This document shows positions 1 through 21,674 of a stretch of 29,966 nt of DNA, in pieces. Position numbers and translations under genes: made by a program. How positions within the stretch are numbered: position 1 is the first letter of the stretch; each line of letters opens with the position of its first letter. Source of the DNA: a virus; IMG/VR virus record IMGVR_UViG_3300008450_000302, positions 1 through 29,966 of that record; one strand, given 5' to 3'. The notes beneath the pieces were generated by a model. It saw nothing but the letters and a program-made list of their open reading frames with translations, was not told where the DNA came from and searched no databases.

Positions 1-1
1 G

Positions 2-145
2 TTGAGTTACGGCAGCGAAATGAAACCGCCGGAGCCTGCCGCAAGCGCGCCCGTCGCCCCCGAGGAAGATCAGCAGGATGACCAGAGCGCAGACTCTCCC
101 GAGGCAATCTCCGAACGCATCAATGCCTTCGCCTTCCTACATTGA
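2..145 (+). CDS. C-terminal end of an upstream phage gene (partial)
   Basis: An open frame enters from the left edge and ends at TGA 143-145, giving about 47 residues rich in Pro, Glu, Asp and Gln and ending in ERINAFAFLH. The real start lies outside the window. From gene order (head-tail connector follows shortly) it should belong to the portal, protease or capsid block, but the tail has no diagnostic motif, so no product is assigned. The acidic proline-rich stretch looks like a disordered C-terminus. It overlaps the start of the next gene. Confidence 0.55.
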   Translation: MSYGSEMKPPEPAASAPVAPEEDQQDDQSADSPEAISERINAFAFLH

Positions 146-1049
146 GGCGCTGGAGCGCTCGCTGGGCCAGGTCGTCGCCCGAGCGCGGGGAGAGCTTGAT
201 CTGCTGAAGGCGCAGGCTGACGCTGTCGTGGCGACGGCCAATGCGAAGGCGGCGGAATCCGAGGCCCGACTCAATGCGTTGGACGCTGCAGTCACGGCCC
301 GGCTGGCGACGCTGACCGATGGCGAACGAGGGCCGCAAGGAGAGCGCGGGCCCGTCGGGATCGACGATATAGACGTTGAGTGCAAGGATGACGGCGAGAC
401 GCTGCTGTTGAAGTTTTCGCGCGGCGAAGTGCTGGAGATCTACGAAATCGGTCTGCCGCGGGGTTTGACCGGCGACCCTGGCGAGCGTGGCGAGATCGGC
501 CCTGCCGGCGAGCGCGGAGAGCGCGGTCCCGAAGGGCCGGCTGGAAAAATGTCGATCGCAAAAGCGTGGGCGGCCGGCGTTCACTATGAAGGCGAGGTCG
601 TCACGCATGGCGGCCAGACATGGCAGGCGTTGAAAGACACCGGGCACGAACCGGGTTTGTCCGACTGGGCGTGCCTTGCCGAGCGCGGGGCCGATGGTCG
701 GGATGCGCCCGGCATGGTCATCCGTGGAACTTGGGCGACCGAGAACGAATACCAGGCCCTCGATGTGGTGGCCCTGAACGGTGCCGCCTTTGTGGCCAAG
801 ATCGACAAGCCCGGTCCCTGCCCCGGCGAGGGCTGGCAACTGATGTCGGCGCAAGGCAAGCGCGGCGCGGCTGGCGAGCGCGGTGAGAAGGGTGACAAGG
901 GCGAGCGCGGCGAACCCGGCGCCACCATGAAAGCCGTGTCGCTGGACGACTTCGGCGTGTTCTCGTTCGACCTGACGAACGGCCAGACGGTTCAATGCGA
1001 CGCCCGGTCGGTGCTGGAGCGCATTATCAGCGCGGCGAGGGATCTCTGA
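78..1049 (+). CDS. Collagen-like phage structural protein with two carbohydrate-binding-like modules
   Basis: 323 residues. Residues 16-80 form an Ala/Leu-rich helical, coiled-coil-like segment. Gly-X-Y collagen-type repeats follow at about 82-94, 129-157 and 260-283. Between them lie two W/Y-G-rich modules (about 163-202 and 217-258) with the pattern Y-x-G-x-V-V-x-x-x-G-x-x-W/F-x-A and a late W, as in small chitin-binding (CBM5/12-like) modules. Such a protein could trimerise and project from the virion. Its place between the capsid block and the head-tail connector suggests a head fibre or decoration protein, which is inference. Start: ATG 78 has GAGGA about 11 bases upstream. ATG 123 is possible and would shorten the overlap with the upstream gene, but lacks a well-placed ribosome binding site. 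Confidence 0.75.
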   Translation: MTRAQTLPRQSPNASMPSPSYIEALERSLGQVVARARGELDLLKAQADAVVATANAKAAESEARLNALDAAVTARLATLTDGERGPQGERGPVGIDDIDVECKDDGETLLLKFSRGEVLEIYEIGLPRGLTGDPGERGEIGPAGERGERGPEGPAGKMSIAKAWAAGVHYEGEVVTHGGQTWQALKDTGHEPGLSDWACLAERGADGRDAPGMVIRGTWATENEYQALDVVALNGAAFVAKIDKPGPCPGEGWQLMSAQGKRGAAGERGEKGDKGERGEPGATMKAVSLDDFGVFSFDLTNGQTVQCDARSVLERIISAARDL

Positions 1050-1624
1050 TGCTGTCCCCGGTTCGCACTTCTGCCCCGGCGACGAACCCCGTCACGTTGA
1101 CGGAAGCCAAGTCACAATGCCGCGTCGATCATAGCGACGACGACACCCTGATCACCCTGCTGATCTCGGCGGCCACGGCCCATCTTGACGGCTATGCGGG
1201 CGTCCTCGGGCGCGCGCTGGTCACCCAGACTTGGCGACAGGATCTGGAGTCGTTCTCTGATCCGCTTCGGCTGGCGCTGGGGCCGGTCGCATCGATTACC
1301 AGCGTGACTTATTACGACGCCGACAATGCCGTCCAGACGCTGGCCGGCACGGTCTATGGACTGTTTTCAGACGAGTTCGGGGCCTATTTGGCGCTGAAGC
1401 CTGATCAGACCTTCCCGTCTGTCTATTCGCGCCGGGATGCGATCTCGGTGACCTACGTTGCCGGGGTTGCCGACAGTGCGGTGCCCGCGCCGATTAAACA
1501 CGCGATCCTCCTGATGGTCGGCCACTGGTACGCCAACCGCGAGGCGGTCGCCCCTGGCCAGATGTATGACGTGCCGATGGCCGTTGACGCCCTGATCCGC
1601 CCTTACCGGCGCGTCGGGGTCTGA
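1049..1624 (+). CDS. Head-tail connector protein (phiE125 gp8 / HK97 gp6-like)
   Basis: 191 residues, starting at an ATG that overlaps the upstream stop (TGATG). The N-terminal half reads PVTLTEAKSQCRVD-HSDDDTLI, followed by an Ala-rich helix, TLAEAK/D-D-x-L-I being the signature of the gp6-like connector family. A beta-rich C-terminal half with SVTYYDADN and ISVTYVAG follows, as in the longer phiE125 gp8 type. Family knowledge: twelve copies form a ring under the portal and connect the filled head to the tail. Gene order (connector, closure, gp10, terminator, tail tube) agrees. Confidence 0.88.
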   Translation: MLSPVRTSAPATNPVTLTEAKSQCRVDHSDDDTLITLLISAATAHLDGYAGVLGRALVTQTWRQDLESFSDPLRLALGPVASITSVTYYDADNAVQTLAGTVYGLFSDEFGAYLALKPDQTFPSVYSRRDAISVTYVAGVADSAVPAPIKHAILLMVGHWYANREAVAPGQMYDVPMAVDALIRPYRRVGV

Positions 1625-1652
1625 ACTCACAACCTAACCGAAGGAGCGCTGA

Positions 1653-2060
1653 ATGGCCGACATCTCAATCACCGCCGCCAACGTGGTCGCGGGCTCTGAC
1701 GCGGTTCGCGAGTCCGGCACGGCTGGCGCGACCATCACCGCCGGTCAGTTGGTCTATCTCGACACCTCGGACATGAGGTTCAAGCTGGCCGACTCCAACG
1801 GTGCGGCGGCCCTTCGCGTCCCGAACGGGATTGCGCTGAACGGCGCGTCGAACGGTCAACCGCTGTCGGTCCAGAAGGGTGGTGACATCACCATCGGCGG
1901 GACGATGACGGCGGGCGTGGCCTATTATTTGTCAGACACCCCCGGCGGCATCTGCCCGGTTGCCGACCTCGGGTCCGGCGAATATCCGTGCATTGTCGGC
2001 ATCGCAAAAAGCGCCTCGGTGCTTGCCGTCAACATCCAGCCCTCTGGCGTGGCGCTCTAA
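1653..2060 (+). CDS. Probable capsid decoration protein (DUF2190-like)
   Basis: 135 residues, preceded by AAGGAG at a good distance. The sequence is almost entirely short beta strands with Gly/Ala/Thr turns (ITAGQLVYLD, GGDITIGGTMTAGVAYYLSD) and no Cys pair or catalytic motif. This is the look of trimeric head-stabilising proteins related to lambda gpD or DUF2190. The position among head completion genes supports a surface structural role. The family call is from general pattern, not from a diagnostic motif. A short tail accessory protein is the main alternative. Confidence 0.6.
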   Translation: MADISITAANVVAGSDAVRESGTAGATITAGQLVYLDTSDMRFKLADSNGAAALRVPNGIALNGASNGQPLSVQKGGDITIGGTMTAGVAYYLSDTPGGICPVADLGSGEYPCIVGIAKSASVLAVNIQPSGVAL

Positions 2061-2063
2061 ATC

Positions 2064-2399
2064 ATGGCGCTCGCGGCGGGCAAAATGGACCGCCGGATCA
2101 CGCTGGAGCGGTTCGTCACGTCCGTCGATCAGCACAATGAGCCGGTTCTGTTGTGGTCGGCCTTAGCTACCCGCGCGGCTTCGTATGAGCCGATCAGCGA
2201 CGGCGAACGGTTCCGGGCGGGCGAAACGGCGGCGACCGCCTCGGCGCGGTTTGTGATCCGTCATTCATCCACTGTCGCCGGACTGAACCCCAAGGATCGG
2301 CTGATCTTCGACGGCCGCACCTGGCAGATTTTGCACGTCAAGGAAATCGGTCGGCGCGAGGGCATCGAAATCAGCGCAACCGTCCGGGCTGATGGCTAA
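2064..2399 (+). CDS. Head closure / head-tail adaptor protein (SPP1 gp16-like)
   Basis: 111 residues. It starts AAGKMDRRITLERFV and continues with W-S-A-L-A-T-R-A-A-S-Y-E and a late RLIFDGRTWQI-LHV strand pair. This is the Phage_H_T_join pattern (L-x-x-R-I-x-I-x-x near the start, a central W-x-x-R, and a final Y/W-x-I beta hairpin). Family knowledge: it sits below the connector ring and closes the DNA channel after packaging. Its stop overlaps the start of the following gp10-like gene by 8 bases, suggesting coupled translation. Confidence 0.85.
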   Translation: MALAAGKMDRRITLERFVTSVDQHNEPVLLWSALATRAASYEPISDGERFRAGETAATASARFVIRHSSTVAGLNPKDRLIFDGRTWQILHVKEIGRREGIEISATVRADG

Positions 2400-2877
2400 G
2401 GGCGTCAAGGTCTCGGTCGATGGCCTCCGCGAGGTTGACGCCGCACTCGGTGAACTAGGCAAGGCAACCGGCCGGAACGTGATGCGCCGGGTCGCGGTCG
2501 CCCGACTGGAGCCAATGGCCGAAGAGGCCCGGCGGCTGGCCCCGGATAACCCGGACACGGGTGGGAACGATCTGAGGGAAAGTATCGCGGTTTCGACCAA
2601 GCTCGGCGGATACGCCAAGCGGCTGAACCGGCGCAGCAAGAGTGAGGCAGAAGCCCACATGGGGCCTGCCGGCAAGGGTGGAACGAAGGCCCCGCCGCAG
2701 GGCACCCAGCAAGAGTTCGGCAACAAGAACCACCCGCCCCAGCCGTTCATGCGGCCCGCGTGGGACGCCGGTCAGGACGCGCTGCTGGACGGCATCAAAG
2801 ACGACCTGTGGGCCGAGATTGAAAAGGCCGCCGCGAGGCAGGCCAAAAAGGCCGCCAGACTGGCCGCGAGAGGGTAA
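2392..2877 (+). CDS. HK97 gp10-like neck / tail completion protein
   Basis: 161 residues. It opens with KVSVDGLREVDAALGEL and an Arg/Ala-rich helix, then EEARRLAPDNPDTGGNDLRES, the APxxTGxLxxSI motif of the HK97 gp10 family in slightly altered form. The stretch FGNKNHPPQPFMRPAWDA is the typical G-x-x-x-x-P-A-x-P-F-x-R-P-A-x-D motif. A Lys/Ala-rich helical C-terminus (KKAARLAAR) closes it. Family knowledge: it is a neck component at the head-tail interface. Order and overlap with the head closure gene fit. Confidence 0.9.
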   Translation: MAKGVKVSVDGLREVDAALGELGKATGRNVMRRVAVARLEPMAEEARRLAPDNPDTGGNDLRESIAVSTKLGGYAKRLNRRSKSEAEAHMGPAGKGGTKAPPQGTQQEFGNKNHPPQPFMRPAWDAGQDALLDGIKDDLWAEIEKAAARQAKKAARLAARG

Positions 2878-2880
2878 CGC

Positions 2881-3273
2881 ATGGAAGCCGCCCTGATCGC
2901 AAAACTGCTGGCCACGGCCGGCGTGACCGCCCTTGTCGGCCAACGCATAAACTGGAGCCGCCGACCCCAAGGCGCGGCGCTTCCGGCCATTGTTCTGCAC
3001 CGCGTTTCGGGGTTGCCCGATGTACACCATGCCGGGGCCTCGGGTCTCGTTGTGAGCCGGGTCCAAGTCGATTGCTGGGGTGCGTCCTACGGGTCGGCCA
3101 AGGCCGTCGCGCGGGCCGTTCAATCCGCCATCACGGCGCAAACCTTCACCCAAGGCGCGGTGCGCTTTGGCGTGATCCTGATCGACTCCGAGCGAGACGA
3201 TTCCACCGACGAAACTACCCCGCTTTTCCGCACGTCCCTGGACCTCATGGTCCATCACGCCAACGCCTCTTAA
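2881..3273 (+). CDS. Tail terminator / tail completion protein (DUF3168-like)
   Basis: 130 residues beginning MEAALIAKLLATAGVTALVG, then I-x-W-x-x-x-P-Q-G-A-A-L-P-A-I-V-L. VQVDCWGASYGSAKAVARAV and a late FRTSLDLMVHH strand follow. This order matches DUF3168 proteins: an N-terminal helix with L-x-x-x-x-x-V-x-A-L-V-G-x-R-I, a P-Q-x-x-x-x-P-x-I-x-x/Y core, and D-x-W-x-x-x-x-x-x-A. The family caps the tail tube and sets its length end-point before head joining. It lies directly before the tail tube gene, as expected. Confidence 0.86.
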   Translation: MEAALIAKLLATAGVTALVGQRINWSRRPQGAALPAIVLHRVSGLPDVHHAGASGLVVSRVQVDCWGASYGSAKAVARAVQSAITAQTFTQGAVRFGVILIDSERDDSTDETTPLFRTSLDLMVHHANAS

Positions 3274-3285
3274 GGAGCAACACAC

Positions 3286-3705
3286 ATGGCCGCTTCCGCT
3301 GCTGTTAACGGTTTTGGGGCGGTCTTCGCCTACCTCTCGACCGATCCCTCGACCTTTACCGCCCTCGCCGAGGTGCTGTCGGTCACGCCGCCGTCGATCT
3401 CGGTCGAGACCGTTGAATCGACCCACATGGGTTCGGACGACGGCTTCCGGGAATACATTGCCAGCCTGAAGGACGGCGGCGAGGTCACGGTCAACCTGAA
3501 CTATGTCGAGGCCAGCGCGACGCTGCTTCAGACGCTGGTTCTGGCCGGCGTCGAGACGTTCCGGGTGACCTTCCCCGGTTCGTCCACCTTCACCTTCTCG
3601 GGCATCCCGACCGCCTTCGCTTTCGATGATCTGGTCATCGACGACAAGGTGGCCATGAGCCTGACCATCAAAGTGACCGGCAAACCCGTCTACGCGGCGG
3701 TCTAA
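3286..3705 (+). CDS. Major tail tube protein
   Basis: 139 residues with a clear AAGGAG ribosome binding site (TAAGGAGCAACACACATG). Features of the lambda gpV / siphovirus tube fold are visible: an early V-x-S-V-T-P-P-S-I-S-V-like strand, D-G-F-R-E-Y-I-A-S-L-K-D-G-G-E-V-T-V, the mid-protein GSSTFTFSGIPTAFAFDD, and a final SLTIKVTGKPVY. The loop ESTHMGSDDGFREYI-SLKDGGE is characteristic of tail tube monomers. It stacks as hexameric rings around the tape measure. It precedes the chaperone pair and tape measure, the conserved order. Confidence 0.88.
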   Translation: MAASAAVNGFGAVFAYLSTDPSTFTALAEVLSVTPPSISVETVESTHMGSDDGFREYIASLKDGGEVTVNLNYVEASATLLQTLVLAGVETFRVTFPGSSTFTFSGIPTAFAFDDLVIDDKVAMSLTIKVTGKPVYAAV

Positions 3706-3708
3706 GCC

Positions 3709-4095
3709 GTGGGAGCCAACGCTCACAAAGGCGAGGCGTCGATCAAGGTTGGGGGTCGGGACTATGTTCTGGCCTTCAACATCAATGCGATGTGCGAGGT
3801 TGAATACATCCTCAACCTTTCGACGGACCAGATTCTGCTGACGCTTGTAGGTTCCCCGCCGTTGCACGTCGTTCGCGCCCTTCTCTGGGGCGGTCTTCGT
3901 CAGCATCATTCCGACGTTGATCTGATCGGCGCGGGCAATCTGATCGAAGAGATGGGCGGCCCCGGCCTTGCCCTCGACGGCATCGGCCGGGCACTGGTCT
4001 CGGCCTTTCCTGAAGCGAAAGACGAACCCGCAAACCCTCAGAAGGGAGCGGCGGCTGGGACTGGCCGTCGCTCCTTAAAGCGTGGGTCTCAATAG
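3709..4095 (+). CDS. Tail assembly chaperone, short form (GTA gp10 / TAC_11-like)
   Basis: 128 residues from a GTG start 3 bases after the tail tube stop. It contains GEASIKVGGRDYVLAFNINA-MCEVEYIL and RALLWGGLRQHHSDVDL, followed by GLALDGIGRALVSAF. This is the usual layout of the gene-transfer-agent gp10 family: small beta N-terminus, an N-x-x-C-E-V/A-E helix, and a helix with R-x-x-x-W-x-G-L. It corresponds to lambda gpG, a chaperone that coats the tape measure during tail assembly and is absent from the virion. The last 20 or so codons, after the slippery site at 4032-4038, differ from the frameshift product. Confidence 0.85.
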   Translation: MGANAHKGEASIKVGGRDYVLAFNINAMCEVEYILNLSTDQILLTLVGSPPLHVVRALLWGGLRQHHSDVDLIGAGNLIEEMGGPGLALDGIGRALVSAFPEAKDEPANPQKGAAAGTGRRSLKRGSQ

Positions 4096-4340
4096 GCCAG
4101 CCAGAAGATCGGTTCTGGCTGGTGACGCCGCGGGTGATGCAGTTGGTCTTTGCCGGGGCGTCTGATCGCTTCGCGCTGGATCAGAAAAACCGGGCGTGGC
4201 TGGCGTGGCATACCGCCGCCCTACCTCGCATGGAAAAGTTCCCGGCGCTTGAAAGCCTGATGGGCTACAAGCGCACCGCCCGCCGACAGACCGTTTCCGA
4301 AATGGAAGCGATCTTCGCGGCGTGGGCAGCAAGAGGTTAA
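3709..4340 (+). CDS. Tail assembly chaperone, long form made by -1 frameshift (G-T type)
   Basis: Predicted join 3709-4038 and 4038-4340, about 210 residues. After decoding AAC CCT at 4033-4038 a one-base backward slip opens the -1 frame, which is clear from 4014 to TAA 4338-4340. That frame encodes a region beginning about 4056 with WDWPSLLKAWVSIGQPEDRF and then W-L-V-T-P-R, the conserved signature of TAC_6-type chaperones (W-P-x-L-x-x-x-G-x-x-x-x-x-F-W-x-x-T-P-R-E/V). No ATG, GTG or TTG lies in this frame upstream of the conserved W-D-W block, so independent initiation would lose half the domain. It is the counterpart of lambda gpGT, with the T half expected to recruit the tail tube protein. 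Confidence 0.82.
4032..4038 (+). promoter_or_regulatory. Programmed -1 ribosomal frameshift slippery heptamer
   Basis: AAACCCT is in the zero frame as A AAC CCT and fits the X XXY YYZ rule. Shifting back one base re-pairs as AAA and CCC. It lies after the last -1 frame stop (TGA 4011-4013) and before the zero-frame stop (TAG 4093-4095), the only window in which a shift can work. I found no other heptamer of this form in that 80-base interval. Confidence 0.82.
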
Positions 4341-4343
4341 ACT

Positions 4344-6272
4344 ATGTCTCAAGCTGTCGTCGGCGCGCTTCGGGTTACCCTCGGCCTGGATTCGGCCCAG
4401 TTCACCAACGGCATGAGGGAGGCCCAGACCGGCCTTCAGAAGTTCGCAGGGATCGCCAAGGCGGGCGCGCTTGCTATCGGCACCGCAATGGTCGCGGCCG
4501 GCGGTGCGATGGCGATGGCCATGAAGGGCGTGATCGACCGGGCCGACCGGATGTATGAGGTCTCGCAGTCCCTCGGCGTTGCCGTCGAAGACCTTAGCCG
4601 GATGCAGTACGCCGCCGAGCTTTCCGGGGTGAGCCTGGAGGGGCTGGAAAAGTCGATCAGGAAGCTCTCGACCTCACTTTATGACGCGAGCCAGTCCGCC
4701 ACCGGCCCAGCCGCTCAGGCGTTCAAAGCCCTGGGGATCAGCGCAACCGACGCCAATGGCAACGTCCGCCCCGTCATCGACGTAATGGGCGACCTCGCGG
4801 CGCGGTTTGAAAAAATGCCGGACGGCGTGACCAAAACGGCCCTGGCCATCAAGGTCTTCGGTCGGTCCGGTGCCGACATGATCCCCATGCTCAACGAGGG
4901 CCGCGCCGGCCTGACGGCCATGTACGAAGAGGCCCAGCAACTCGGCGTCGTTCTGGACACCGAGACGGCGGCGGCGGCGGAAAGGTTCAATGACAACCTG
5001 ACCCGGCTGGGCAAGGTTCAGGACGGGATCATTACGAAAATCACGGCGGGGATGCTGCCCGCCCTGTCAAACCTGACGGACGCGCTCGCCAACACATCGC
5101 GAAACACCGGCATCTTGAACGCCATCGGCGGTGCCCTGGGCCGGATGATGCAAGTTCAATACACTGTCATCGCGGGTGTCGCTGGAGCGTTTAGCTTCCT
5201 TGCCCGAACCGCCAACATGGCGACGGTGGCGGTTGGTCGGCTTCTCAAGGGCGACTTCGTTGGTGCGGCAGAGGCTCTAAGGGTCGGATCGCTGGACATC
5301 GCGGGTTCGCTGACGGGGACGGTCGCAACCATCAGGAATATCTGGAAGCCGCTTGAGGACGTGTCTGCTGTCGAGAATGCAGCCGCGCAAGTGGACGGGC
5401 TGGCGCATTCCGCCAGGGGGGCGGCTCGGGCGACGGGCGGGCTTACGGATGCCCAGCGCGAACAACAGCAGGCCGCGTCAGATTTGGCCCGTGAGGCGGC
5501 CCAAGTTTACGACCAGACCCGGACCCCGGCGGAACAGTATGCGGCCGAGGTCGAGCGACTGACCCGGCTTCTCAATGCAGCCGCGATCAGTCAGGACACC
5601 TTTAACCGCGCCATGCGAGAGGCCGGTGTCCGCCGTGATGCTCAAGACCCGCTGTCGCAAGCCGGGGCGCGCATTGCACAGCAAAACCGCGAGGCTGACG
5701 AACAGCGCCGCGAGGATGCCGAGCGGTTCGCCGCCGACCATGAAGAGAACCTGCGCGCCTCGACCTATGACGGCATCCGTTCAGGCCTTGAGGCGGCGGC
5801 AGACGGCAATCTGGGGCAGTACCTCGCCGCGCGTCTTCGGGCGGCGCTGTTCGACGGCCTGGCCGACTCGCTGACCAATATGCTTCGGGGGTCGAAAGGC
5901 TCCAGCGGCGGCGGCGCGATGGGCTGGCTGAACGCCGCCGGGTCGATGCTCAAGGCGTTCACGGGTGGGAAGATTCCCGGCTTCAAGACCGGCGGCTCTT
6001 TCAAGGTCGGAGGCTCCGGCGGTGCCGACAGCCAGTTGATGCAGTTCCGCGCCACGCCGGGCGAGATGGTGGACATCCGCCGGCCGGGGCAGGACGCGGG
6101 TGGGGGCATGGCGGTTCACGTCGTGCCTTCGCCGTATTTTGACGTTCGGGTTGAAAAGGTCGCGGTGCCTATCGCCGGTCGCGCAAGCCTTCAGTCTTTC
6201 AGTGCGGCGCGAAATCAGGTGCCTGCCGATGCTGCCCGCCGTGCGCGGTTTAGTCTGTCGGGAGCGCGCTAG
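4344..6272 (+). CDS. Tail tape measure protein
   Basis: 642 residues, the expected neighbour of the chaperone pair and before the distal tail genes. The N-terminus GALRVTLGLDSAQFTNGMRE and following Gln/Lys helix are typical of TMP N-termini. A Gly/Ala/Met-rich hydrophobic stretch (about 38-62) is followed by a TP901-type core with SQSLGVAVEDLSRMQYAAEL, LGISATDANGN, and IKVFGRSGADMIPML. A second hydrophobic stretch lies near 275. The C-terminal third is charged helix and then a Gly-rich tail. The protein sets tail length and forms the DNA channel on injection. At 642 residues it predicts a fairly short siphovirus tail of about 100 nm by the usual rule of 0.15 nm per residue. Confidence 0.93.
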   Translation: MSQAVVGALRVTLGLDSAQFTNGMREAQTGLQKFAGIAKAGALAIGTAMVAAGGAMAMAMKGVIDRADRMYEVSQSLGVAVEDLSRMQYAAELSGVSLEGLEKSIRKLSTSLYDASQSATGPAAQAFKALGISATDANGNVRPVIDVMGDLAARFEKMPDGVTKTALAIKVFGRSGADMIPMLNEGRAGLTAMYEEAQQLGVVLDTETAAAAERFNDNLTRLGKVQDGIITKITAGMLPALSNLTDALANTSRNTGILNAIGGALGRMMQVQYTVIAGVAGAFSFLARTANMATVAVGRLLKGDFVGAAEALRVGSLDIAGSLTGTVATIRNIWKPLEDVSAVENAAAQVDGLAHSARGAARATGGLTDAQREQQQAASDLAREAAQVYDQTRTPAEQYAAEVERLTRLLNAAAISQDTFNRAMREAGVRRDAQDPLSQAGARIAQQNREADEQRREDAERFAADHEENLRASTYDGIRSGLEAAADGNLGQYLAARLRAALFDGLADSLTNMLRGSKGSSGGGAMGWLNAAGSMLKAFTGGKIPGFKTGGSFKVGGSGGADSQLMQFRATPGEMVDIRRPGQDAGGGMAVHVVPSPYFDVRVEKVAVPIAGRASLQSFSAARNQVPADAARRARFSLSGAR

Positions 6273-6859
6273 TGGCTATTGCTCTCCCTAACACCCCTTT
6301 CCCGGCATCCATGACTCCCCGGCTTGTGACCGGACGGGCCGAGCTTCGCCCCGCGTTTGGGGGTGACCTGCAACGCCTGAACCGGGTCGGTTCACGGTTC
6401 GCCATAGACGTGACGCTGCCGGTGATGACCTATGCGGCAGCGCAAGCGTGGTCCGACATCAATGATGAGACGGACACGGTGACGATGCAGATCGTCCAGC
6501 CTGGGCTCAACACTGGATCGCCGGGAACCCCTTTGGTCAACGGTGCGGGGCAGTCGGGGACGACCCTGATCCTTGACGGCCTCACCCCGCACTATGTTCT
6601 CCGCAAGAACCAGTGGATCAGCGTCTCGACCGGCGGCCGGCTCTATGCCTACCGCGTCAAGACTGAAGTGGCCGCGTCTGCTGGCGGTGCCGTGAGCGTG
6701 GTTCTGACGACGATGCTTCGGGTATCCCCGGCTGACAATAGCCCGGTTCAGATTGCCGCGCCCCGCATCGAGGGCTTCGCCACCGTGCCAGACGATGCGT
6801 GGGCCACAAACACGGCGGGCCATGTGGCCCTGTCGTTTACGATTGAGGAGCGCGGCTAG
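6272..6859 (+). CDS. Distal tail protein (adsorption apparatus, lambda gpM / Dit-like position)
   Basis: 195 residues from a GTG that overlaps the tape measure stop (TAGTG). The protein is beta-rich. Its middle reads GQSGTTLILDGLTPHYVLRK, then W-I-S-V-S-T-G-G-R-L-Y-A-Y-R-V, VLTTMLR and R-I-E-G-F, a recurrent pattern in alphaproteobacterial siphophage proteins just downstream of the tape measure (S-G-x-x-L-x-x-x-G-x-x-x-x-x-x-x-x-G-D-x-x-S-x-x-x-G-R-x-Y-x-V). It probably forms the ring at the tube tip that seats the hub. The assignment rests mainly on position and beta-rich pattern. Confidence 0.65.
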   Translation: MAIALPNTPFPASMTPRLVTGRAELRPAFGGDLQRLNRVGSRFAIDVTLPVMTYAAAQAWSDINDETDTVTMQIVQPGLNTGSPGTPLVNGAGQSGTTLILDGLTPHYVLRKNQWISVSTGGRLYAYRVKTEVAASAGGAVSVVLTTMLRVSPADNSPVQIAAPRIEGFATVPDDAWATNTAGHVALSFTIEERG

Positions 6860-7485
6860 TGGACGCCGCTCTGATCACCGCGCTTCAGGGCGCGGCTCCG
6901 ACGATCGTTCATCTGGTCACCGTCACTCTGTCGGGTGCCACGGTGCGATGGCTGGACACGGGGGGGTCGGGTTTCGTTGTCTGGGGTGCGAACACCTATT
7001 CCGCAGAAAACGCCACCTACGGCGCCCTGGGGGCGATTGGAGCCGTGGAGGATGGCGCGGACGGTCAGGCGACGGTTTGCGATCTGACCATCCTTTGCGA
7101 CAGCACGGCCATGGCGTTGTGGATCGACCCGGCCCGGCAGGGTTCGCTGGTCACAATCCACGTCGGGGCGGTCAACCCTGCGACCGGCCTTCTGATCGGG
7201 GAGCCGGAACTGCTTTTCCGGGGAGAGCTTGATCAGCCGCGCCTTGCTGTTGGACGGGGGCAGACCCTGATTTTCGACTGTATCACCGAAGAGGCCCGGA
7301 TGCTGGAGCCGAACGATGAACAGCGCCTGACGGATAGTTTTCACAAGTCAGTTTGGCCCGGCGAGTTGGGTTACGACAAGGTGACCGAACTGGAACAGAC
7401 CGTGTTCTGGCGGGCCGATGACCCGCGCGGTGCCATTACCTCGGGCGGTTCCGGCGGCATGGGTGGAAGGATAACCAGCCGATGA
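6859..7485 (+). CDS. Tail hub / minor tail protein (lambda gpL position)
   Basis: 208 residues starting at a GTG overlapping the previous stop (TAGTG), and overlapping the next ATG by 4 bases. An early helix (MDAALITALQGAAPTIVHLV) is followed by beta strands, with G-A-N-T-Y-S-A-E, LFRGELDQPRLAVGRGQTLI and F-D-C-I-T-E-E-A-R, then a Gly-rich end. Size and place between the distal tail gene and an NlpC/P60-like gene match the GTA gp13 or lambda gpL slot. No gpL-like Cys cluster is obvious. A structural tail tip role is inferred from synteny. Confidence 0.62.
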   Translation: MDAALITALQGAAPTIVHLVTVTLSGATVRWLDTGGSGFVVWGANTYSAENATYGALGAIGAVEDGADGQATVCDLTILCDSTAMALWIDPARQGSLVTIHVGAVNPATGLLIGEPELLFRGELDQPRLAVGRGQTLIFDCITEEARMLEPNDEQRLTDSFHKSVWPGELGYDKVTELEQTVFWRADDPRGAITSGGSGGMGGRITSR

Positions 7486-7889
7486 CAGTTTCCGCCGTGA
7501 ACGCCGCCCAGGCCTGCATCGACCGCTTTGGCGGCAAGGCATATCAACCGGGCAAGAACGACTGCGCCATCCTGGCCGCGCATCTGCTGCACCAGTACGG
7601 CATCAAGGTTCCGGCGATGAAGGGGCGCAAGTATCGCACCGAGGCGGCGGCATTGCGGACAATGCGGGCCGCTGGGTATCACGACCTGATCGAGGCGATT
7701 GATGCGCTCGGTCTGCAACGGATCGCGCCGGCAGCGGCGAGGACCGGCGATCTGGTTGGTATGCCTTGCGATGGTCCGTGGGGCTGCGCCCTGACGGTCG
7801 CGGTCGGAAACGGTCGCGTCTTCGGGTTTCTCGACGGCATCGCCCAGGTGCAGATCCCGGCGGCCTTTACTGCCGCGTGGAGGGCTTAG
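7482..7889 (+). CDS. Tail-associated NlpC/P60-like protein (DUF6950-like)
   Basis: 135 residues. FGGKAYQPGKNDCAILAAHLL contains a Cys after N-D at the start of a helix, the place of the NlpC/P60 nucleophile. A later ARTGDLVGMP block and G-x-V-x-G-F-L-D-G segment fit the compact papain-like fold of DUF6950, a phage family lying just before the central hub gene. The usual second catalytic His is not clear (GCALTVAVGNGRV replaces a G-H-V-x-x-x motif), so activity is uncertain. Homologues in this slot (lambda gpK, GTA gp14) cut peptidoglycan or help assembly at the tail tip. Confidence 0.7.
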   Translation: MTVSAVNAAQACIDRFGGKAYQPGKNDCAILAAHLLHQYGIKVPAMKGRKYRTEAAALRTMRAAGYHDLIEAIDALGLQRIAPAAARTGDLVGMPCDGPWGCALTVAVGNGRVFGFLDGIAQVQIPAAFTAAWRA

Positions 7890-7890
7890 A

Positions 7891-10026
7891 GTGCCACAAG
7901 TCGCGGCATGGGCCACCGCTGCACTTGCGAGCGCCATCACGGGCGGTGCGACAACGGCGGCCAGCGCGGCGGCTGCGACCGCCGTGGCAACGGCCATCGT
8001 TAATGTGGCCACTCAGGTTGTGGTGGCGGCGGCGACGGCGGCGGCAACCACGCTTCTGACACCAAAGCAACGCGCCGAGGGATCGACAACGGCGTTCCGC
8101 CTCGACACCGACGCTGGCATCCCCTTTGCCTTCGGGACCGTGGGGGTCGGCGGCGTTCTGGCCTATCGCAAGAGCTTCGGAGCGACCAACCGCTATCAGG
8201 CTCTGGTCTCGACGGTTTCGGGCGCGGGTCCGATCAAGTCGTTTGTTTCGTTCGCTGCCGACGATGAAGTCACGACTTTCGGGGCAAACGATGTTGCAAC
8301 GTCCGGCGACCACGCCGGCGCGATGTGGTGCCAGCGCAAGGTCGGAGCCCAGCCGCAAGGGCACCTGACCAGCCCGACCGGCCTTGAGCTTTCTGTTACG
8401 GCTCCCGGCTGGACTTCGGCGCACGATATGTCGGGCCGGGCCTGCGTGATGTGGACGCTGTTCGAGAATTCCAAGATGACGGAGTTCAAGGGCGGCGTTC
8501 CGAAACCGCTGCACGTCATCGAGGGCAAGTATGGCTACGACCCGCGCCTCGACAGTACCTATCCGGGCGGCTCGGGATCGTGCCGTCTGTTGACGCCTTC
8601 AACATGGGTCTGGATCACCAACCCTGCGATTGCGGCCCTGAACTGGGCTATCGGTATGTGGGAGGGTTCCGGCGGCGGATCGTATGGCGTCCCCTACGCT
8701 TGCTCGCTGGTCGGCGGCATCGGTTCGTCGCTCGACGGCATTGACGTTCCCGCCTTCGTCAATGCGGCCAACATCGCCGATGCAAACGGGTGGATCATCG
8801 CGGCGTATCCCTCGACCAAGGATGATAAGTACGCGGTCCTGACCAATATGCTCCAGGCGGCTGGCGCGGAGCCGTCGCGCAAGGCCGGCAAGATTAGCTG
8901 CGTTTCTTTCGGCGAGGCGCAGGCGTCGGTCCTGAATGTGGTCGCCGCTGATACGTCAGGGCCCATTGAGGTCTCTTTGGGTCAGTCGCGGCTGGAGCGG
9001 ATCAACACGGTGCTGCCGCGCTATTACAGTGCCGCCCATCGCTGGGAGATGACGCAGGCTGCGCCGGTTTCCAAGGCGGCTTGGGTGACGGAGGACGGTG
9101 GCAAGCGTTCGCGCGGGCTGGACTATCCTTATGTGCCGGACGCTGATCAGGCCGCACAGCTTGCCTATTACGACATAGCCAATGCGCGCGAGGCCATCTC
9201 AGGAACGGTCACGTTCAAGCCCCACATGAGGCGGATCGAACCGGGCGACTGCTTTACCTTCACGGAGCCGGGCTTCCTGTTGAGCGGCATCAAGGTCAAG
9301 TGCCTGCGCCGATCCTACGACCCGATGACGGGCGCGGTGCGGGTGACCTTCCGCCAAGAGACGGACGCAAAACACGCGGCGGCTATGGCGGAAACCGGAA
9401 CGGCCCCCAGTTCGGCCGTGCCGGACACGCCCTATCCGGGGCCGTGGCCGGCTGACGATGCGATCTACGGGGTTGCCGGAAGCGGCGGGGGTATCGCGGG
9501 GGATCTTGCGTTCCTTGACACCGTGTCGGCCAGTCAGATCGACACAGATGCGGTCGAGACCGCCAAGATTGTTGCCAACGCGGTGACCAAGCCCGCGCGC
9601 TACGACAGCGCGAGTGAAACAGACTTGGTGGCGGCAGGCGTCGCGACCGGCCCGATCACGACCCGTTACACGATCTTCGACACATCAATCACGGCGTCTG
9701 GGTCGGAAATCATCGTCAACGGGAGTTTCTTCCTGCGGCTCCAGCACAGTCAGGACGACGTAGTTCTGACTGTGGTGGTGGAGCGCGGCAGCACCGGAGG
9801 CGGCGGAACGCCGGATGTGTTCTCTGCCCCGACGCAGAGTCTGGCGATCAGTGGGGACGGTTTTATCAGTGGCTGGCAGGTCATATCCTTCAGCGACACG
9901 CCACCTGCCGGCACGGTGACCTATTACGTCCGGGTCTTTCACACCTATACCATCGGATCGCCCGGCGGCTTTGTGACGTGGAAGCACAGAAACCGGACCA
10001 TGAGCTTTCTGGAAACAAAGCGATGA
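7891..10026 (+). CDS. Central tail hub / host specificity protein (gpJ-like)
   Basis: 711 residues from GTG, one base after the preceding stop. Residues 1-60 are a long Ala/Thr/Val-rich hydrophobic segment, common at the start of gpJ-like hubs, followed by TTLLTPKQRAEG and a beta-rich body. Segments such as RLERINTVLPRYYS, GLDYPYVPDADQAAQLAYYD, RRIEPGDCFTFTEPGF and IKVKCLRRSYDPMTGAVRV are those of hub domains that recur in gpJ, GTA gp15 and related proteins (R-x-N-x-V-x-x-x-Y; P-x-V-x-D-x-x-Q-A; L-x-x-G-D). The C-terminal 180 residues form an additional beta-sandwich, possibly fibre docking. It contacts the cell surface and opens the channel. Confidence 0.85.
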   Translation: MPQVAAWATAALASAITGGATTAASAAAATAVATAIVNVATQVVVAAATAAATTLLTPKQRAEGSTTAFRLDTDAGIPFAFGTVGVGGVLAYRKSFGATNRYQALVSTVSGAGPIKSFVSFAADDEVTTFGANDVATSGDHAGAMWCQRKVGAQPQGHLTSPTGLELSVTAPGWTSAHDMSGRACVMWTLFENSKMTEFKGGVPKPLHVIEGKYGYDPRLDSTYPGGSGSCRLLTPSTWVWITNPAIAALNWAIGMWEGSGGGSYGVPYACSLVGGIGSSLDGIDVPAFVNAANIADANGWIIAAYPSTKDDKYAVLTNMLQAAGAEPSRKAGKISCVSFGEAQASVLNVVAADTSGPIEVSLGQSRLERINTVLPRYYSAAHRWEMTQAAPVSKAAWVTEDGGKRSRGLDYPYVPDADQAAQLAYYDIANAREAISGTVTFKPHMRRIEPGDCFTFTEPGFLLSGIKVKCLRRSYDPMTGAVRVTFRQETDAKHAAAMAETGTAPSSAVPDTPYPGPWPADDAIYGVAGSGGGIAGDLAFLDTVSASQIDTDAVETAKIVANAVTKPARYDSASETDLVAAGVATGPITTRYTIFDTSITASGSEIIVNGSFFLRLQHSQDDVVLTVVVERGSTGGGGTPDVFSAPTQSLAISGDGFISGWQVISFSDTPPAGTVTYYVRVFHTYTIGSPGGFVTWKHRNRTMSFLETKR

Positions 10027-10277
10027 GCCGCTATCTTTTGATCGACCCGGATGGCGAGACCATTGTGGCGGTCCTCTCCATGAACGAAAGCGACGCCCTG
10101 CTGAATGTCCGCCCCGGCCAGACGCTTTTCGCGATTGCGCCCGATGAAGACAGTGGCACCGTGATTGACAACGCTTCGGTGAAGTTCGCGGGCGGGGCCA
10201 TCGTCACCATCGCCGGCGGCACGACCCCGGCGCAGTTTGCAGACCTGACCCTTCAAGAGGTCACCCCGCCCGAATAG
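10023..10277 (+). CDS. Small tail-tip protein of unknown function
   Basis: 84 residues, starting at an ATG overlapping the hub stop (ATGA), so translation is probably coupled. It opens MSRYLLIDPDGETIVAVLSM, followed by short beta strands, and ends acidic and Pro-rich (TLQEVTPPE). No known motif is seen. Its place between hub and fibre suggests a tail accessory or assembly protein, but nothing more can be said. Confidence 0.7.
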   Translation: MSRYLLIDPDGETIVAVLSMNESDALLNVRPGQTLFAIAPDEDSGTVIDNASVKFAGGAIVTIAGGTTPAQFADLTLQEVTPPE

Positions 10278-10333
10278 GGCACATCGCCAGCGAGACAATC
10301 CGCCATGAAACAAGCCGCGCGAGGGGCCGACGA

Positions 10334-10738
10334 ATGACGCCTGTTTTTGTGCCACTCCCGATTTGGCGAAATGCCGACTATGCCGAGACCTGGGTGATCG
10401 CCGACAGTTTTGATCACCGGGGAACTGCCGCCGATCCGCAAGACCTGACGGGCTGGGCCTTCGCGCTTCAGGTGCGGGCCTATGGAAGCCCAGATGGGAC
10501 GCCGCTGCTGTCTCTGGTCCCCGTCACGACGGCGGTGCAGGGGGTTCGCGTCATAGAGCCGGCCGCCGGTCAAATAGAAATCCGCATCGACGATGCGAGC
10601 CTCGAAACACTGCCGAAAAACACAAACCAGGGCGAGCCGATCAGGTTGGTCTACGACCTGGTAGCAACCGACCCGACCGGGCTCAGGCGCGTCTATGCGT
10701 TCGGTGATTTCATTGTCCAGCCAGGAGTTACCCGATGA
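10334..10738 (+). CDS. Baseplate/fibre-associated protein (BppU N-terminal-like, tentative)
   Basis: 134 residues with AGGGG about 9 bases before ATG. It contains W-R-N-A-D-Y-A-E-T-W-V-I-A-D, D-L-T-G-W-A-F-A-L-Q-V-R, then a beta-rich stretch with GQIEIRIDDASLETLP and a final VYAFGDFIVQPGV. The D-L-T-G-x-x-x-x-x-Q-I/V-R motif with a terminal G-x-F-x-V-x-P-x-V-T strand is recurrent in small proteins encoded just before tail fibres, some of which have Ig-like baseplate folds. A fibre adaptor is a reasonable guess. Its stop overlaps the fibre start by 4 bases. Confidence 0.7.
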   Translation: MTPVFVPLPIWRNADYAETWVIADSFDHRGTAADPQDLTGWAFALQVRAYGSPDGTPLLSLVPVTTAVQGVRVIEPAAGQIEIRIDDASLETLPKNTNQGEPIRLVYDLVATDPTGLRRVYAFGDFIVQPGVTR

Positions 10739-13700
10739 CCAATGTGACGCTGGCCCTGCGCGGCATTCGTGGAGAAAGTGCGGCTGACATCGCCCGCCGC
10801 GTTCTCAGCATTACGGGTTCCGACAAGGCTGCGCTTCAGGCGCTGATGCTGGATGATGCCGAGCTTGCCCAGATCCTGACCGACGCAGAGGCGGCTCGGG
10901 ATGGCGCTGAAGCCGACGCGGTGCAGACCGCGCTTGACCGCATCGCCACGGCCGCCGACCGGGTTCAAACGGGCCTGGACCGCGTGGCGACGGCTGCGGA
11001 CGTGGTGGCCGCCGAGGCTGACCGCGTGGCGACGGCTGCGGATCGCGTGGTCACGACCGCTGATCGGGTGCAGACCGGGCTTGATCGGACCCAAACGGGC
11101 CTCGACCGGGTGGCGACGGCTGCTGATCGGGTCCAGACGGGCCTTGATCGAGTGGCGACCGCCGCTGACGTGCTTGCTGCCGATGCCGATGCCGTGGCTA
11201 CCGCTGCGGACCGAGTGCAGACCGGCTTGGATCGGGTGGCGACGGCTGCTGATCGGGTCGTCACTACGGCGGACAAGGCCGCGACGGCTGCTGACCGAGT
11301 GCAAACCGGCCTCGACCGCGTGGCGACTGCCGCTGACGTGGTGTCCTCTGCGGCGAACGCTGCGGCGGTGGCCGGGGCGGTGGATACCTTCGCCCGGTTT
11401 GACCGCGCCGACCTCTACGGCCTCGCGGACGACACGCGCCGCAATCTGTTCATGCACAGCGGGATCGAACTGCTGTTCGCCTCGGGCTACTATCGCTCGG
11501 GCGTCAGCGTCGCCGCGCTCGCGTCATTGCCCGGCTACTCCTACACGCGGACGGGTGCGGCTACGGCTGAAACGGCGGCTGGTGTCGTCGTCAACTTCGC
11601 CGCCAACGTGCCCCGGATTACGGATCGCGGGGTGCTGATTGAGGAGGCGCGGACTAATCTGCTGCTGCGCTCGGCTGAGTTCGATAATGCCGCGTGGACG
11701 AAGGCCGCAAGCGGAACGGGCTTGACCCCGGTTGTGACGGCCAACGACGCGGCGGCTCCTGACGGCACGATGACCGCTGACCGAGTGGTGTTGAGCCTGG
11801 CGGGTGGCACAGCGTCCGGCGACAGGTCAACGCTTCAGCAGGGCGTTACCGGCCTGACGGCGGCGGCAAGCTATAGCAACACCTACTACGTGAAGGGCGT
11901 TGCGGGCGAGCAGATCGTCTACCGACAGGTCAATAACAACACCTACAGCGGGCACACCTTCACGGGCGGCTGGGATCGCATCGGCAACATCGAAACTGCT
12001 GCGACCACCATCTCGACTATTGAGATCGGACTGAGGGGGGCTCAGGCGGCTCCGTCGTCCAATGCGGTGACGTTCCATATCTGGGGCGGCGACCTCCAGC
12101 TCGGCGCTTTCCGCACCTCCCACATCCCGACGACCGGGGCTGCGGCAACGCGGGCGGCTGATGTGATGGCCCTGGGAAGTCTGTCGGTTGGCTATCCGGC
12201 GTCATTGATGGCCGAATGGTCGCGTCAGGGCGGGACCGACGCGGCGACATTCTACCGCGTGGTCTCGCTTGAACGGGCGTCCCCGGCCAATGTGTCCGCA
12301 ATCTTCCAGAGACACACCACCAACGACGTTCGTGCGTTTCAAACGACAGCCGGGGCTAATCAGGCCGACCTTTCTCTTGGCACAGGCGCAATCGGGACCG
12401 TGCAACGCGCCGCCGCGCGGTTTTTGACCAACGACGTGTCGGGATCGACCAACGGTCTGGCTTTCGCAACCGATAACGTGGTGACGATACCGACCGATCC
12501 GGCCACTAACTTGTATGTCGGGGCCAGCGTTGGCGGGAACCAGCTCAACGGCTATATCCGCTCCGTCGTCTGCTTCCCCTTCGCCCTCAACGACAACCAG
12601 CTCCAGGTTCAATCGAATCTGCCCTCGGCCCCGGCCCTGTCGGAGGCCCTGACGACCGACGCCACCCTCGACCTCATGGCCCGCGCCAGCCTCTATGGGG
12701 TCACGGACATATCGCAGGCCCTCGGGTTCGCCCGCACCGGGGTCGAGGCGCTGTTCCAGACGCCCTACTACCGCAAGGGCCTCCTGTCGTCCGTGTCCCC
12801 TAACGCGGTGTCCCTGACGTTCACCCGCACGGGCGCAGGCACGGCGCTGGATGTGGCCGGGAACGTGGTCAACTTCGCAACGGGCGAGATGCGCCGCACG
12901 GATCGCGGGGTTCTGATCGAGGAGGCACGGACGAACCTCTCTCTGCGGTCGGCTGAGTTTGGTGACGCCACTTGGTCAAGGACCGGGGCGACCATAAGCG
13001 CCGACGCGACCGCCGCGCCGGACGGCACGACCACGGCAGACAAGCTGGTCGAAGACAGTTCAACGGGGACGCACCGCGTCCTGAATAATGTGGCCCTGAC
13101 GGTTACCGCAGCCAGCACCTACACATGGTCGGTTTTTGCAAAGGCCGCAGAGCGCACGTCGGTTCGGGTTGAAAACAACTCCCTACTGGGTGCGACTTTT
13201 GACCTTTCAACTGGGGCGGCCTCCAACATAAGCGGCGGCATTACGGCCAGCGCCGTCGCGTTGGCTAACGGCTGGTTCCGGCTTTCTATCGTGGGCACCG
13301 CCGCCACGACATCAGAGCGCGTCATCGCCAATCTGGTGTCGGCTGGGTCAACGTCATATACCGGCGACGGCACCAGCGGCGTGTTCCTGTGGGGCGCCCA
13401 ACTCGAAGCCGGAGCCACCCCGTCCTCCTACATCCCCACCGGGGCCGCAGCAGCAACGCGGGCACAGGACAGCCTGCCCTCACCCGCAAGCATCGCTTCG
13501 GGTCAGAACTTCCTCGTCAACACCGAGGTTGAGTTCACAAGAGCAGGAACCGCGCAGCAGCGCATCTTTGAACTGGACGCAGGCACCGCCGCGAACCGCA
13601 TCGTTCTTTACCGGCTTTCCACTGGTGAGATTGAAATGGTCGTAACCGTGGCCAGCGCCTCCACGGTGATTTCTGGCCCCGCCAAGGCCGGGGCGCGTAC

Positions 13701-13914
13701 CTGCAAGATCGCGGTTCGCCGCGTAGGGTCAGTTTATCAGCTCATCGTGGACGGCGTAGTTTCGACATCGGGAACGGTGGCTGCAATGCCTACACTGACC
13801 TCAATGTTCGACGGGTCGGGGCGCACCCTGTCGCCTCTCAACGACTACCTGCGTCGCCGCGTCACGATGCTCGGCACCTTCACCGATGCCCAGTGCATCG
13901 CCATGACCACCTAA
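10735..13914 (+). CDS. Tail fibre with heptad-repeat stalk and duplicated spike-fibre / LamG-like domains
   Basis: 1059 residues. Residues 1-60 are a probable virion-attachment region. Residues 60-210 are an unbroken 7-residue repeat alternating L-D-R-V-A-T-A and A-D-R-V-Q-T-G, a trimeric coiled-coil stalk. Then two related units follow with a period of about 426 residues: one at about 220-630 and one at about 645-1059. Each has L-Y-G-x-x-D, a Y-Y-R strand, TDRGVLIEEARTNL-x-LRSAEF (296 and 722), W-G-x-x-L-Q/E-x-G-x-x-x-x-x-Y/H-I-P-T, A-A-A-T-R-A-x-D, and a terminal concanavalin/LamG-like module. The TDRGVLIEEARTN block is the head-spike-fibre type carbohydrate-binding domain. It is the likely host receptor-binding protein. 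Confidence 0.9.
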   Translation: MTNVTLALRGIRGESAADIARRVLSITGSDKAALQALMLDDAELAQILTDAEAARDGAEADAVQTALDRIATAADRVQTGLDRVATAADVVAAEADRVATAADRVVTTADRVQTGLDRTQTGLDRVATAADRVQTGLDRVATAADVLAADADAVATAADRVQTGLDRVATAADRVVTTADKAATAADRVQTGLDRVATAADVVSSAANAAAVAGAVDTFARFDRADLYGLADDTRRNLFMHSGIELLFASGYYRSGVSVAALASLPGYSYTRTGAATAETAAGVVVNFAANVPRITDRGVLIEEARTNLLLRSAEFDNAAWTKAASGTGLTPVVTANDAAAPDGTMTADRVVLSLAGGTASGDRSTLQQGVTGLTAAASYSNTYYVKGVAGEQIVYRQVNNNTYSGHTFTGGWDRIGNIETAATTISTIEIGLRGAQAAPSSNAVTFHIWGGDLQLGAFRTSHIPTTGAAATRAADVMALGSLSVGYPASLMAEWSRQGGTDAATFYRVVSLERASPANVSAIFQRHTTNDVRAFQTTAGANQADLSLGTGAIGTVQRAAARFLTNDVSGSTNGLAFATDNVVTIPTDPATNLYVGASVGGNQLNGYIRSVVCFPFALNDNQLQVQSNLPSAPALSEALTTDATLDLMARASLYGVTDISQALGFARTGVEALFQTPYYRKGLLSSVSPNAVSLTFTRTGAGTALDVAGNVVNFATGEMRRTDRGVLIEEARTNLSLRSAEFGDATWSRTGATISADATAAPDGTTTADKLVEDSSTGTHRVLNNVALTVTAASTYTWSVFAKAAERTSVRVENNSLLGATFDLSTGAASNISGGITASAVALANGWFRLSIVGTAATTSERVIANLVSAGSTSYTGDGTSGVFLWGAQLEAGATPSSYIPTGAAAATRAQDSLPSPASIASGQNFLVNTEVEFTRAGTAQQRIFELDAGTAANRIVLYRLSTGEIEMVVTVASASTVISGPAKAGARTCKIAVRRVGSVYQLIVDGVVSTSGTVAAMPTLTSMFDGSGRTLSPLNDYLRRRVTMLGTFTDAQCIAMTT
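10915..11360 (+). repeat. Tandem 21-base coding repeats of the fibre stalk
   Basis: About twenty degenerate 21-base units, each one heptad (GACCGCGTGGCGACGGCTGC-like and GATCGGGTGCAGACCGGGCT-like), make this stretch nearly self-similar. The units are in frame with the fibre gene and vary mainly at third positions, so selection is on the coiled coil. Recombination could easily lengthen or shorten the stalk. Confidence 0.85.
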
Positions 13915-13928
13915 TCGGAGACCCCCAC

Positions 13929-14180
13929 ATGATCGACATTATCGGCATCATCTACGACACCCCGACCGAGGAGGAAGGCGAGCCCGTCGCCCTCACCGGC
14001 TGGCACGTCAACACCACCCCGGAATACATGGCCGAGCATCCCGAGCTTGAGCCGTTCGTGGTCATCCCCTCGGCCCTGCGCCGGGTCTGGGCGGGTGACG
14101 ACCCGGTGAACCCTGTCTCGACCGTGGCCCTCAAGTTCGCCGACGAAGCCGAGGCCCTGGCCATGATCCCGGCCGCCTAA
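13929..14180 (+). CDS. Small acidic protein downstream of the tail fibre
   Basis: 83 residues with GGAG 8 bases before ATG 13929. Sequence: MIDIIGIIYDTPTEEEGEP, then L-T-G-W-H-V-N-T-T-P-E-Y and RRVWAGDDPVNP-VSTVALKFADEAEAL. No known motif. Position directly after the receptor-binding fibre is where fibre-assembly chaperones and trimerisation helpers are often found, so such a role is possible but unsupported by sequence. Confidence 0.72.
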   Translation: MIDIIGIIYDTPTEEEGEPVALTGWHVNTTPEYMAEHPELEPFVVIPSALRRVWAGDDPVNPVSTVALKFADEAEALAMIPAA

Positions 14181-19253: not shown

Positions 19254-20021
19254 TCAGGCGGGCGTGCCTGTATCGGTGGCCTTCGTGCCAAGGGCTGCGA
19301 GGATGCGTTCGATGGCCTCAATCTCTGACGCGCATACCGGCACATAGTTGAGGCTGCTGTGCAGCGGTTTCGGCGTCTCCTTGGCGATTTCCAGCCACTC
19401 CGCCACAACTTCAACATCCTCCCTGCTCACCCCTACCGGAACGACATAATCGCGCCAGATGTCAGTCATGGCGGGCGAATAGATGACCGTGCTGTAGGCT
19501 TCGGCGTCATCTTGGCGGCTGTCGAGAAGCTGTCGCGCCAACCACTGCCGGCGCTCTCCGATCTTGTGCGGCCCGTTCAGGTCGTTGTGGCCGGCCAGAT
19601 CGCGGCGGGCGGTGCGCAGGGCGGGCTCGAGCCGGTCGCGGCCTTCGCCTTTGAGCCAGGCGTAGCCGAGGCTGGTCTCGCGCTCATGGGCCATGTCCAG
19701 CAGCCAGACCTGCACGCCGCGGTGCAGGCCGCGCCGGTTGGCGAACTGCAGATCCTCGACCTCTTCCAGCTGGATGGCGCGGTCGCCCGGCAGGGCGAGG
19801 CGGCGGCGCTCGATGTGGCGGGCCCGACCGTGCAGGTCGGGACAGACCGTCGGTTTGGTCGTCGGGTCGATGCGGGTCAGGAAGGCGAAGTCAGCGTCGT
19901 GGATCATGGGGAGCGTCGAGATGCAGCCCAGTGCGGGCGTGGGGGCCGTGCCGGCAGGCGGCGGCGGGGCGTGGTTGGTAAAGGCCAAGGCCGGTCCGGA
20001 TTCGAACCAGGGGCGGCGCAT
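19254..20021 (-). CDS. Unknown leftward early protein
   Basis: 255 residues from an ATG overlapping the ParB-like stop (TGATG). The N-terminal 40 residues are Pro-rich (FTNHAPPPPAGTAPTPALGC). From about 45 on the protein has CPDLHGRARHIERRRLALPG, a helical body with EVEDLQFANRRGLHRG, and DIWRDYVVPVGVSREDVEVV near the end. Adjacent N-L/H-G-x-A-R-H segments do not match a family I know. Coupled translation with the ParB-like gene suggests a functional link. Confidence 0.72.
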   Translation of the reverse strand: MRRPWFESGPALAFTNHAPPPPAGTAPTPALGCISTLPMIHDADFAFLTRIDPTTKPTVCPDLHGRARHIERRRLALPGDRAIQLEEVEDLQFANRRGLHRGVQVWLLDMAHERETSLGYAWLKGEGRDRLEPALRTARRDLAGHNDLNGPHKIGERRQWLARQLLDSRQDDAEAYSTVIYSPAMTDIWRDYVVPVGVSREDVEVVAEWLEIAKETPKPLHSSLNYVPVCASEIEAIERILAALGTKATDTGTPA

Positions 20022-21535: not shown

Positions 21536-21672
21536 CGGCGGTCGGTCCTGTGCAGGGTGAGGTTCAAGGGGCCGCGGGTGCGGCGGCGGCGCGCGTCGGT
21601 CTTCGGACGCAGCGGGATGAAACAAATGATCAGGGCCCCGATGGTCAGGGCGAAAAGGGCGATGCCGTTCAT
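21532..21672 (-). CDS. 46-residue single-span membrane protein
   Basis: ATG 21672 to TGA at 21532-21534, overlapping the ParB-like start by 4 bases. MNGIALFALTIGALIICFIP gives one transmembrane span, followed by a strongly basic cytoplasmic-type tail (KTDARRRRTRGP). The stop of the upstream gene is 2 bases away. Tight packing supports expression. The function is unknown. Confidence 0.6.
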   Translation of the reverse strand: MNGIALFALTIGALIICFIPLRPKTDARRRRTRGPLNLTLHRTDRR

Positions 21673-21674
21673 GG

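Follow-up and report, generated by a model that had tools for sequence, protein, structure and literature searches.

A C_CCU slip site and a downstream hairpin predicted to join two overlapping tail chaperone frames in phages of alphaproteobacteria

The lambda-type G/GT family of tail chaperones was reportedly dealt with by Xu, Hendrix and Duda in 2004. The programmed -1 frameshift of phage lambda G/GT is reviewed in PMC5009743. In a survey carried out in Escherichia coli with a 3' pseudoknot, C_CCU was among six tetramers shifting at least 4-fold above background, the ranking being A_AAG >> U_UUC > U_UUU > C_CCU = C_CCC > A_AAA (PMC4066793). C_CCU shifts modestly in E. coli and requires a stimulator (PMC4066793), which counts against the frameshift proposed below. 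A pair of proteins homologous to those described below, in the same order, is encoded by g10 and g10.1 (TAC_11 and TIGR02216 rcc01693/TAC_6) of gene transfer agents (GTAs).

The window, that is the whole analysed stretch of 29,966 bases from a virus record (66.7% GC), features the gene order tube, G, T, tape measure according to Pfam and phrog matches, the G and T frames overlapping each other between the tail tube and the tape measure genes (Table 1). A programmed -1 ribosomal frameshift of the lambda G/GT type very probably makes G and a predicted GT product here. TGA 4011-4013 is the last stop of the -1 frame upstream of the heptamer and the G frame terminates at TAG 4093-4095, so that a -1 shift is confined to positions 4014-4092; the first-pass annotation had placed A_AAC_CCT (4032-4038) inside this sole workable interval, and heptamer and stops lie exactly there. 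The -1 frame translates as SERRTRKPSEGSGGWDWPSLLKAW... and contains no ATG, GTG or TTG ahead of GTG 4122, the first start codon of this frame in the window, located 3' of the WDWPSLL block; the same annotation had likewise put the W-D-W-P-S-L-L block before any start. A shift at CCT gives a fusion of 110 + 100 residues, and the recomputed sizes, 128 and 210 residues, agree with the 128 and about 210 previously predicted. At its beginning the window carries a tail-fibre-like ORF (78-1049), directly 5' of a head-tail adaptor gene (995-1624), an unusual location for a fibre gene. A long ORF on the minus strand (20021-21688) matches ParB-like partition proteins (phrog_1033, 9.1e-13).

Table 1. Coordinates of the features of the G-T locus in the window
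Feature	Position	Strand	Basis
Tail tube (major tail) protein gene, adjoining G on the 5' side	3286..3705	+	Pfam Phage_TTP_12 1.3e-13; phrog_158 major tail protein 1e-17
G frame, putative tail assembly chaperone, 128 aa, GTG start	3709..4095	+	phrog_2115 tail protein 7e-12
T frame (-1), open from 4014; TAA 4338-4340	4014..4340	+	phrog_19318 4.9e-21
Part of the T frame predicted to be translated post-shift	4038-4337	+	frame reading
Candidate slip site A_AAC_CCT, in the G frame	4032..4038	+	conserved core C_CCT at 4035-4038
Spacer between heptamer and hairpin, 4 nt	4039..4042	+	fold of 4039-4110
Predicted stimulatory stem-loop, 14 pairs (4043-4056 / 4063-4076), 6-nt loop	4043..4076	+	folding; paired changes
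Tape measure protein gene, adjoining T on the 3' side	4344..6272	+	phrog_8462 tail length tape measure 8.6e-73; Pfam PhageMin_Tail 2.3e-9

Most ribosomes would read the G frame to its TAG stop, releasing the 128-residue chaperone. In a minority of them, decoding CCT 4036-4038, the proline tRNA would slip back one base onto CCC 4035-4037, the slip being favoured by back-pressure from the 14-bp hairpin 4043-4076, and translation would resume in the -1 frame at TCA (4038) to yield the 210-residue G-T fusion. Upon re-pairing, tRNA(Pro, GGG) may exchange a G-U wobble on CCU for a G-C pair on CCC. By analogy with lambda, G would coat the tape measure protein and the T part would recruit tail tube subunits. 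We infer the occurrence and the efficiency of slippage, the re-pairing of tRNA(Pro, GGG) and what each product does.

Relatives were collected in a scan of viral contigs, which gave 63 loci, and whole-genome profile searches then added prophages. Profiles were used because an exact-pattern genome scan had retrieved 6 loci only. Prophage loci were found by profile search in 14 of 397 genomes of Hyphomicrobiales (the order of Chelativorans) and in 38 of 391 genomes of Rhodobacterales (the order of Roseicyclus). Removal of duplicates left 96 T sequences, 95 of which have a recognisable upstream G. The T frame is in the -1 frame relative to G in 94/95 non-redundant relatives, the lone exception, L139, being a weak partial match (22.9 bits). 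This constancy favours programmed -1 frameshifting, as independent initiation predicts no such constraint. In nearly all relatives the T frame lacks ATG, GTG or TTG within 40 codons ahead of the conserved W; L056 and L137 carry a GTG a few codons upstream of W, and count against the frameshift. In a metagenome contig, the two frames of a single tail gene pair could also reflect an error, and the frame change might be ascribed to an indel, to sequencing or to a decayed gene, with no functional fusion. The chance of this is negligible: the same -1 arrangement recurs across independent contigs and prophages, and T differs from its close relatives mostly at third codon positions of the T frame, a sign of codon-level constraint, conservation already contradicting the reading.

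T might alternatively be translated separately from a start of its own, whether GTG 4122 or some non-standard codon, with coupling to G termination, as in GTAs. The wider family does include such cases: in 30/30 GTA loci of Rhodobacterales (L175-L204) an ATG or GTG belonging to the TAC_6 homologue lies 1-15 codons ahead of the W motif, mostly in a stop-start overlap with g10. The GTA homologue of T is shorter, lies in a variable frame and needs no fusion, whereas T of the window has no start of its own. Frames vary among GTAs (24 -1, 3 +1, 2 same), in contrast to the phage family; the first T-frame start codons are not aligned among phage relatives; and beginning at GTG 4122 would drop WDWPSLL and the first predicted helix. 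A separate start is accordingly improbable for the window. It had been stated at the outset that separate initiation of T in relatives would speak against a frameshift: such initiation is seen in GTA g10.1 genes, but not among the phages, which keep the -1 relation and lack starts. Phages would thus seem to express this chaperone pair through a frameshift, and GTAs through a start codon for each protein.

The aligned frames share a near-invariant element, NNN CCC TCN GAA GG as read in the T frame. C_CCT copies in the overlap of the relatives number 52 in the slip-permitting frame, vs. 3 and 9 in the other two, and in-frame C_CCT occurs in 49 relatives, at near-equal distance upstream of the T block. 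The heptamers of C_CCT relatives are CCGCCCT (17), AAACCCT (16), GCGCCCT (8) and others (8). As judged from the alignment, the conserved core is the tetramer C_CCU, not the whole heptamer, the AAA of the window being one of several contexts. AAACCCT, the slip site originally proposed, does lie at 4032-4038, but the element under conservation is narrower than had been thought, and the hairpin had been overlooked. In L008 a T-frame TGA lies directly ahead of AAACCCT, and in L050 and L061 a stop likewise directly precedes the site; in L017 and L045 a G-frame TAG immediately follows CCT. Stops bracketing the site on the two sides leave only the slip site itself in common.

Codon choice around the site is skewed. 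Proline at the P-[SYLTAF]-[ED] motif, picked regardless of codon, is encoded by CCC in 40/46 cases vs. a 27% background, and the acidic codon at the PSE-type motif is GAA in 35 cases and GAG in 1, contrary to local usage; p-values for such family signals near the slip site count relatives as independent, and are indicative only. The bare heptamer is unremarkable by count (3 copies vs. 1.16 expected, both strands of the window). What is beyond chance is its context, i.e. the -1 relation in 94/95 relatives, the enrichment of in-frame C_CCT and the hairpin downstream. The window heptamer fits the X_XXY_YYZ form, but most C_CCT relatives, C_CGC_CCT for example, do not. In distant relatives this place is occupied by G_GGA_AAG, G_GGA_AAC, A_AAA_AAG or heptamers like them; a few of the distant members show no clean Z_ZZN site within the stretch searched, which counts against the frameshift. 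No relevant paper on AAACCCT or CCGCCCT as phage slip sites was found in the open-access literature.

Some relatives carry runs of six to seven A residues (A6-A7) at the same place, and a change of frame by transcriptional rather than ribosomal slippage was considered. In the window and in most relatives, the run amounts to no more than AAA CCC or bare CCC, which does not reach the length of known transcriptional slippage runs, and the hairpin beside it is conserved at a codon-scale spacing. Slippage of the polymerase is hence a very remote explanation, and ribosomal frameshifting is preferred.

The region 4039-4110 folds at -33.1 kcal/mol (z -3.47), and no other 35-nt segment within positions 1-14000 reaches the stability of the 14-pair hairpin, which starts 4 nt past the heptamer. 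The same helix can be drawn in 13 distinct relatives, with 80.8% of cells paired and 12 cells changed on both sides; none of 500 shuffles was as high in paired changes, and the score is clearly above that of any slid register. Paired changes are good evidence for the putative hairpin but not independent proof of it, because the relatives share ancestry and the helix lies within coding sequence. In some relatives the helix occurs at the same place in a shifted register. The mean folding z downstream of the site in relatives is -1.65, vs. -0.35 and -0.59 in control windows. In the family a Shine-Dalgarno-like stretch is often present about 15 nt (about 12-18 nt) upstream of the slip site (class mean); such an element is absent there in the window, where the hairpin is very strong, and its absence counts against the frameshift. 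A pairing of the slip-site ACCC with a downstream GGGT, suggested by RNAalifold, was rejected as a structure; GGGT corresponds to conserved Trp-Val codons.

The frameshift joining two tail chaperone frames, as first read from the window, is thus supported by the -1 relation, the lack of early T starts, the bracketed site and the hairpin with its paired changes, and the case for it, purely comparative, is strong.

Both protein assignments rest on relatives, because G and T of the window score under curated cut-offs. G scores 13.3 bits against TAC_11 (PF11836, GTA-gp10; cut-off 27.8), and the same profile is matched, at E up to 1, by 20/24 members of the G family (best 5.3e-11). A Pfam scan of the window T alone gave no match, and T hits TIGR02216 at 0.0059, below the cut-off of this model; TAC_6 (PF09550) is matched by 11/26 T family members (best 4.5e-6). 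The comparison of the -1 frame with TAC_6 that had been called for gave matches for part of the family and none for the window protein on its own. T is probably a TAC_6 relative and G probably belongs to the TAC_11/GTA-gp10 group, and phrog_19318, which has no assigned function, and phrog_2115 seem to represent the T and the G part, respectively, of a single frameshifted chaperone. In an AlphaFold2 model of G, pLDDT is mostly 92-98 over residues 11-100, and 56-63 thereafter; the folded part is predicted to span about residues 8-100, and the shift at residue 110 would fall in a disordered tail. The model is similar to viral ones that carry the annotation tail assembly chaperone; a fold search of the PDB with G gave no usable match.

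Slip class follows host order. Hyphomicrobiales prophages carry C_CCT in 11 cases, A_AAC in 1, A_AAG in none, and 3 are unassigned, two of the latter having C_CCG (CCCCCCG, AAACCCG). Rhodobacterales prophages carry A_AAG in 15 cases, A_AAC in 14, A_AAA in 1, C_CCT in none, and 2 are unassigned. Among prophages of known host order, A_AAG is found in Rhodobacterales only; A_AAC, which is independent of tRNA-Lys, occurs in both orders. Genes resembling tRNA-Lys(CUU) were detected by sequence patterns in 14/14 Hyphomicrobiales carriers, and ARAGORN confirms tRNA-Lys(ctt) in 11 of these. The 31 Rhodobacterales carriers gave no such gene, an absence judged from sequence patterns, not from complete tRNA annotation. 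In samples of 61 genomes per order, tRNA-Lys(CUU) is present in about 45 Hyphomicrobiales vs. 2 Rhodobacterales; tRNA-Pro(GGG) is present in both orders.

A second lysine tRNA should weaken slippage on A_AAG, Thermus being the case cited in the review PMC5009743, and the distribution of tRNA-Lys(CUU) fits this expectation. In hosts that carry it, tRNA-Lys(CUU) would read AAG tightly and be unable to re-pair on AAA, and A_AAG would give way to C_CCU sites, which tRNA-Pro(GGG) would read. Slip class may perhaps follow host lysine tRNAs, a link which is phylogenetically confounded. Slip classes cluster on the tree, with at least 6 changes over 94 tips, and an independent-pairs test of host order vs. 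slip class found only 1-2 independent pairs and has no power; given this clustering and the paucity of independent contrasts, a tRNA cause of slip class is no more than a candidate. That phages match the slip codon to the lysine tRNAs of the host, in which case a host tRNA gene would shape phage recoding signals, is a tentative and rather doubtful proposal. The difference between host orders opens the influence of host tRNAs on slip-codon choice to direct testing, and a natural, conserved C_CCU class is a good system in which to study slippage of a single proline tRNA in bacteria of high GC.

Sites such as C_CGC_CCT escape finders built around X_XXY_YYZ, and these G-T fusions therefore go unannotated. 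Annotations of cultured relatives list G and T as two genes, hypothetical for the most part; the five annotated cultured relatives that were examined carry no joined G-T gene, and their T parts are entered as hypothetical proteins. Agrobacterium phage Rivra (L169, about 1500-1560) carries C_CGC_CCC, followed by a similar hairpin sequence; both G and T of this phage are annotated as hypothetical proteins. Paracoccus and Paenibacillus phages feature A_AAA_AAG or G_GGA_AAx sites.

The window and lambda G/GT share the slot between tube and tape measure, the -1 direction and a slip site late in G. In lambda G is in excess and GT is a minor fusion, and the window, known from sequence alone, is likened to it by analogy. 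The lambda system has sites of the A_AAG/A_AAC type and proteins of the lambda G/T families, whereas the window would shift at CCU on C_CCU, next to a strong 3' hairpin, and encodes putative TAC_11/TAC_6 proteins. A single-codon slip coupled to a 3' structure is also found in the IS3-type A_AAG Z_ZZN sites of insertion sequences. In the E. coli survey (PMC4066793) C_CCU was placed in synthetic reporters, whereas here it is conserved in a natural family of alphaproteobacterial phages. The mechanism is of a known kind; what is new is the natural C_CCU class, its predicted hairpin and its distribution among hosts.
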